NCBI GenBank assembly: GCA_031278095.1
Contig: JAITLC010000070.1
Span: 1-36,657, forward strand
Source of the DNA: Treponema sp.
Lineage (GTDB): Bacteria > Spirochaetota > Spirochaetia > Treponematales > Breznakiellaceae
Reading direction: 5' to 3'
DNA: 36,657 nt
Shown here in pieces: positions 11,900-18,491 of the stretch (position 1 is the first letter of the stretch; each line of letters opens with the position of its first letter). Under the pieces are notes generated by a model. That model searched no databases and was not told where the DNA came from. It was given only the letters and a program-made list of their open reading frames with translations. A program made the position numbers and the translations under genes.

Positions 11900-11920
11900 A
11901 TAGAGTCTGTCCATAATGCA

Positions 11921-11947: not shown

Positions 11948-12276
11948 CCTGACAACTCCCGGTCCGGTTGGGCGCTTGCCGCCATCCGGGCCGGTTCATC
12001 AGACCCCGGCTTTTTCCTCCCTTTTCATATGTCTCACCCCGTATTCACTCCCGTTCTTCATCAGCGTATACCCCCGGCCGCCGCACTATCTCCTTTTCCC
12101 CGTCATGTATTCATACCATCTGCCCCTCCGAGTATGCAAAGCAGCCGACTTTGCGGACAGTCCTAAATACGGTATTTTCAAAATTGCTTAATTCTGAAAT
12201 ACTTAAGCTTGTTCCAAAACTCAGGTTTTTTGGAACAGCTTCACTTAAAATTTTTGAGATTTACAGGAAGGAGATC
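11948..12276. other. Intergenic region before the DUF975 gene
   Basis: The first two thirds are pyrimidine-rich on the plus strand and hold no recognisable gene; open frames here lack ribosome sites and read as low-complexity proline/serine text. The last 75 bases hold a palindromic repeat (12205-12241) and the ribosome site of the following gene. Confidence 0.6.
12205..12241. repeat. Palindromic repeat, GTTCC/GGAAC family
   Basis: The left arm AAGCTTGTTCCAAAAC and a right arm GTTTTTTGGAACAGCTT pair apart from one bulge, with loop TCAG. It is a close match to the window-wide consensus and lies 36 bases upstream of the DUF975 start. Confidence 0.85.
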
Positions 12277-18088: not shown

Positions 18089-18120
18089 ACGAATTTGAGA
18101 TTACCGGCTCCAAATACAGC

Positions 18121-18369
18121 GATTCTCAGTTTACCACGAACGGAACGAACAGACACTAGGGAAGCACTGATTTATTCAATCGAGAATAAATCAGCGCTGC
18201 TTTAATGCGGTATGTGCGCAATGAAATGAGCACATACACAGGGAAACGCCGATTGGCGTCATTTAATCAGCGTTTCCCCAACCTTTTGCTTCGACGGCCT
18301 TCATCTTTATCTGAATTCTCTTCTGTTCGTATGGTTAGAGTGGTTCGTGGTTATCTTAAACTGAGAATA
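18121..18369. repeat. Nested inverted-repeat element with three hairpins
   Basis: The outer arms 18121-18152 and 18323-18369 share three complementary blocks: ATTCTCAGTTT with AAACTGAGAAT, ACCACGAAC with GTTCGTGGT, and CGAACAG with CTGTTCG. Inside are hairpin A (18162-18202; arms CTGATTTATTC and GAATAAATCAG), hairpin B (18210-18237; GTATGTGC and GCACATAC) and hairpin C (18241-18278; GGGAAACGC and GCGTTTCCC). Hairpins A and C are related in sequence. It looks like a MITE-like element or a structured RNA; no protein is encoded. Confidence 0.7.
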
Positions 18370-18491
18370 GCCGTGCCAAATACTTGAAACATGGCAAAAA
18401 TATGGATATAGTGAGTACTGAAGAGTCCCTGTTTGGGATAATGGGGTTTTCCGTCGAATCTAAGTTTCCCTGACGGGAAATTGCAGGGCCT

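Follow-up and report, generated by a model that had tools for sequence, protein, structure and literature searches.

Organization of the locus

The window, by which we mean the whole stretch of 36,657 nucleotides that was analysed, comes from a Treponema sp. genome available as a 3.05-Mb draft (157 contigs, 92% complete). Between the divergent uvrB and an LPP20 lipoprotein gene it contains an intergenic stretch rich in hairpins; beyond the LPP20 gene lie a weaker LPP20-like gene and then an LpoB-like gene. A broken inverted repeat encloses three successive hairpins (A, B and C); in this repeat, positions 18116–18133 pair with 18357–18374, and 18128–18141 with 18343–18356. With target duplications counted in, the composite extends over 18110–18383 (Table 1). 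An initial sequence-only reading had described three hairpins within a broken long inverted repeat, with A and C sharing GGGAARC..GATT / AATCAGYG, in a stretch that encodes nothing between uvrB and LPP20. All of this holds: sequence and folding agree on the hairpins, the shared motifs are present, domain matches identify the two neighbours, and we found no gene-like ORF in the composite, just chance ORFs of 60–69 aa.

Table 1. Features of the composite, as interpreted here, and its neighbouring genes (window coordinates)
Feature	Position	Strand	Basis or remark
uvrB	upstream neighbour	-	PF12344, PF17757
Outer MITE, left target-site duplication CCAAATAC	18110..18117	.	identical to 18376-18383
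Outer MITE, left part, TIR GCGATTCTCAGTTTACCACGAAC..., including left CTAG	18118..18159	+	alignment, about 20 other copies
Inner element, left YTAR target, CTAG	18156..18159	.	CTAA in insert-free outer copies
Inner MITE, 118 bp, IS5-group type ends	18160..18277	+	at least 40 copies; limits from 38 copies
Hairpin A, 15-bp stem, loop AATCGA at 18178-18183	18163..18198	+	fold, pair counts
Hairpin B, 8-bp stem	18210..18237	+	fold, pair counts; B2 replaces B in some relatives
Hairpin C, 36 nt	18242..18277	+	fold, pair counts; solo palindromes elsewhere in genome
Inner element, right target, CCAA (decayed CTAA)	18278..18281	.	copy comparison
Outer MITE, right part, ends TTAAACTGAGAATAGCCG	18278..18375	+	alignment with other copies
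Outer MITE, right target-site duplication CCAAATAC	18376..18383	.	matches left copy
LPP20 lipoprotein gene	downstream neighbour	+	PF02169

The A-B-C core is a dispersed element

The A-B-C core, the inner element of Table 1, has at least 40 copies in its own 3.05-Mb genome. Near-full-length copies are 83–98% identical to that of the window, in which 2 positions depart from the family consensus, and 31 of the 37 copies measured by script are exactly 118 bp long. The element has 13-bp TIRs, GGAAGCACTGATT...AATCAGCGTTTCC (GGAAGC..GTTTCC ends). As can be seen from the alignment of copies, the sequence outside it is unrelated from copy to copy except for four bases per side, which on both the left and the right are mostly YTAR, the motif documented as the target of IS5 (PMC10359306). 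Left and right flanks were the same in 16 of 38 copies, a number that 10,000 shuffles never reached (7.0 expected), and in 17 of 21 copies from related genomes (7.5 expected), including an off-motif pair, CTAT/CTAT. The inner element thus has the properties of a MITE, being short, non-coding and dispersed in many copies, with TIRs, target-site duplications and insert-free sites. The same copies, TIRs, duplications and insert-free sites bear out the earlier suggestion of a non-autonomous mobile element; target-site duplication and identical ends both recur elsewhere in the genome, and other copies, on which that suggestion depended, are plentiful.

At five loci (L003, L013, L021, L022 and L055) a neighbouring ORF of at least 120 aa, as called by mechanical prediction alone, ends with its stop codon in the bases immediately next to the inner element. 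Such stop codons are expected if insertion at YTAR, which supplies TAA/TAG on both strands, re-creates a stop. At another locus, a relative of the inner element (L204, G006:C106) has its hairpin A opened by a run of GGT repeats and other sequence, with its ends intact.

Of 24 other genomes from the same genus and family, 10 had matches to the inner element; 15 genomes representing other families of the order had none. Its middle segment also occurs in MAGs labelled Treponema sp. or Spirochaetaceae bacterium, which, from their isolate names and general background, we take to be termite-gut MAGs; a search of the open-access literature found no description of such elements in termite-gut spirochaetes. 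In some relatives the hairpin between the same A and C is of another kind (B2), unrelated to B.

The arms belong to a second family

The outer arms form a family of about 20 copies in the same genome, roughly 110–135 bp long without insert; core-free copies mostly measure 111–127 bp between the end motifs GCNATTCTCAGTTTA and TTAAACTGAGAATAGC. Its target duplication is 8–9 bp: CCAAATAC in the window, CTGCATAA at L099, GTTTGTCC at L096 and GACGGCGCC/GACGACGCC at C108. For the flanks of 13 copies the mean best nine-base match was 7.15, compared with 5.23 after shuffling (0 of 500 as high). TIRs, dispersed copies and the 8–9 bp target duplication mark the outer element, too, as a MITE. The family is nearly confined to the genome of the window: among 200 genomes the exact end pattern found the own-genome copies and G171 only, the latter a trace (one further short match). 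By the same exact pattern, no IS with these ends was found in those 200 genomes of the family. A 21-nt match at L095 was considered as the parent and rejected, as that locus has no transposase-like ORF.

One MITE inserted into the other

The outer arms belong to one repeat family and the A-B-C core to another, and each of the two also occurs alone. Outer copies that lack the insert mostly read CACTAACG at the junction, with CTAA exactly at the insertion point, and the window reads CACTAG / 118 bp / CCAACC. In copy C108 the same place inside the outer element carries an undecayed CTAA/element/CTAA, and in the C25 copy the junction on the right still sits at this CTAA. At C94 the core occupies a different CTAA, one that lies at an outer copy's end. 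The insert-free CTAA sites, together with the duplicated outer flanks, therefore put the outer element first and the inner second.

Taken together, these comparisons indicate that the locus very probably consists of two nested non-autonomous MITEs, the inner one of IS5-group type. The outer MITE (roughly 110–135 bp) would have entered the space that separates uvrB from the LPP20 gene, with CCAAATAC as its target duplication. An unrelated 118-bp MITE would later have entered a CTAA of the outer element, with duplication of four bases, and the two CTAA copies would then have drifted to CTAG (left) and CCAA (right). Nested transposition of this sort is an ordinary process, and the two MITEs probably have no host function. 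The outer right arm has a 9-base extension that is common to the window and C108 and absent from C25. Because of this shared extension, the insertions in the window and C108 may either be independent or reflect a composite that moved once as a unit.

Other repeats add further layers. The locus that holds C108 (L152, G000:C108:2000-3200) is a multi-layer nest of the outer MITE, the inner 118-bp element and two further hairpin repeats within the latter; a repeat of the TTTTGGAACAG kind interrupts the inner element there. This short hairpin repeat family, with TTTTGGAACAG, is also found at positions 12228, 13756, 19146 and 28587 of the window. A further hairpin repeat family, CTGTCCATAA..GGACAGACAC, occurs at 11907 and 35512, as well as beside inner copies in L062.

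IS5-group insertion sequences as the probable parent

Related genomes carry IS5-group transposases (PF05598, PF01609, NF033581). The ends of these IS read GG[AC]A[AG]C[AG]CTGATTAA and are preceded by YTAR, with the transposase starting about 35–50 nt inside; we saw such ends in about 10 loci from several genera of the same family. In G017 both ends are preserved in a decayed copy; about 1.25 kb separates them, and on the outside they are flanked by CTAA and TTAG. The inner element thus shares its ends with IS of related genomes that code for an IS5-group transposase. Judging by these ends and the YTAR target, the inner MITE is most likely mobilised in trans by a DDE transposase of the IS5 type.

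What speaks against an IS5-type parentage is that the genome of the window, a 92% complete draft of 157 contigs, gave no match to an IS5-group transposase of this type, although the gene may have been lost from the assembly. Two weak DDE_Tnp_1 matches there were rejected as the parent, since they lack the inner element's ends. Multi-copy insertion sequences are often lost from draft genomes, their loci falling at contig ends, and several of the relatives' IS5-group loci do sit at contig ends. The absence of the helper from the draft is therefore weak evidence. A helper transposase in the same genome is usual and not required, as a MITE may outlive it. That no parent of the outer element emerged from the 200 genomes by exact pattern also counts against the nested-MITE explanation.

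Hairpins of the inner element

The hairpin fold went well beyond that of shuffled sequences, both for the 118-nt core folded as DNA (z = -5.7; 0 of 200 shuffles as good) and for the 258-nt whole folded as RNA (z = -8.1; 0 of 200). Covariation of the stems among copies was strong between species and only weakly above shuffles within the genome. In the own genome we counted 6 two-sided pairs versus 4.1 in shuffles (81 of 500 as high). Between species, 98.4% of the cells in stems A, B and C were paired (92.7% in shuffles), with 32 two-sided changes versus 9.1±2.5 (0 of 500 as high), although these cells count sequences rather than events and relatedness inflates the between-species figures. One pair of hairpin C, for instance, occurs as A-T, C-G and T-A between species. 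No such covariation links the two ends of the element (87.5% paired versus 86.7%). Complementarity from TIR to TIR is thus looser than that inside the hairpins, which a simple MITE does not predict, and the hairpin structure of the inner element is stronger than a plain MITE needs.

Two readings of this structure suggest themselves: the hairpin form may matter, in transposition or as RNA, or template switching may keep the arms alike. Arm-to-arm template switching reportedly both creates hairpins and maintains them (PMC8794818). Inverted loops are an expected mark of such exchange, and were seen at L054 (TCGATT for AATCGA) and between L120 and L200 (GCATTC and GAATGC). We favour the view that template switching at least contributes to the likeness of the arms.

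It is possible, though on balance doubtful, that the terminal hairpins are themselves the units recognised in transposition, as hairpin or cruciform, and that near-perfect palindromes of 36–42 nt can move alone with a 4-bp duplication. The 118-bp element might then be a miniature composite transposon, with two palindromes around an exchangeable middle hairpin; what is kept would perhaps be the ability of each end to form a hairpin, and not the complementarity between the ends, as the covariation of the hairpins and not of the TIRs would suggest. The own genome contains 41 exact C-type palindromes (0 for the reversed-pattern control), about 25 within 118-bp copies and 16 outside. Four of these 16 solo 36-nt palindromes (C9, C11, C91 and C133) have YTAR on both sides, and one more has CCGG on both sides. 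Inside the element, TTAA follows A and NTAG/ACAG precedes C. However, an 82-bp deletion between the GGAARCRCTGATT direct repeats of A and C would also yield a solo C with the outer target duplications kept, so that the solo C copies with YTAR flanks may be either tiny mobile units or deletion products, and it is for this reason that we consider solo mobility tentative. A solo A of 42 nt does exist in a relative, but it is rare (one locus, 1 in 59 genomes by exact pattern), the hybrid at L046 resembles a slip between direct repeats, and most IS5-group ends in relatives have no hairpin. Mobility of the palindromes is compatible with the nested-MITE explanation, which it refines.

It is improbable that selection maintains the hairpins as a structural RNA or RNA-level device, for example one protecting or ending transcripts at gene ends. 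In favour of the undescribed structured RNA suggested in the sequence-only reading, the hairpins do covary between species (98.4% pairing and the excess of two-sided changes), which leaves some chance of a role for the hairpin form, and some inner copies adjoin stop codons. On the other hand, the within-genome covariation is barely above shuffles, copies sit in unrelated contexts, relatives swap hairpin B for an unrelated one, and Rfam gave no match at the curated gathering thresholds, on which ground a known RNA family was rejected. Template switching between palindrome arms can also yield compensatory changes without selection (PMC8794818).

Finally, growth of a single element by internal duplication at this locus, as first proposed from the sequence that A and C have in common, is almost certainly wrong, because outer and inner parts are independent families with copies of each lacking the other, insert-free outer copies exist, and the likeness of A and C, already there in copies across genera, goes far back in the history of the inner element.

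Comparison with known systems

We conclude with high confidence that the locus is a nested pair of MITEs. Its many intergenic hairpins can thus be understood as layers of mobile DNA, with IS5-group insertion sequences of this spirochaete family as the probable parent of the inner MITE. The strong between-species covariation in a mobile DNA element is also a warning that covariation alone is no proof of a functional RNA, and the inner element offers a chance to test the role of short terminal palindromes in IS5-type transposition.

Elements of this kind are already known; the uncommon feature of the inner one is that each end has its own evolutionarily preserved hairpin. Like IS5-group IS and the MITEs derived from them, the inner element has GGAARCRCTGATT ends, as in the relatives' IS5-group elements, a 4-bp YTAR target duplication, as in IS5 (PMC10359306), and, as in such MITEs, no coding capacity, an intergenic position and many copies. 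It differs from IS5-group elements in that its ends each fold into a hairpin of their own with a third between them, and in that the helper transposase was not found in its genome (a 92% complete draft). Given this hairpin-ended, modular build, we regard it as a modest variant of an IS5-group MITE. Prokaryotic MITEs (PMC10969869) share the size, TIRs, target duplications, stable stem-loop fold and intergenic location; here, however, one MITE lies within the other, and the inner is built of modules (A-B-C), of which B can be exchanged. The REP/REPIN palindromes, for which RAYT tyrosine transposases provide mobility, are likewise short, intergenic and two per element. The inner element, in contrast, has TIRs and target duplications as DDE transposons do, and since its target duplication is of the DDE type, a REP/REPIN reading is unnecessary.
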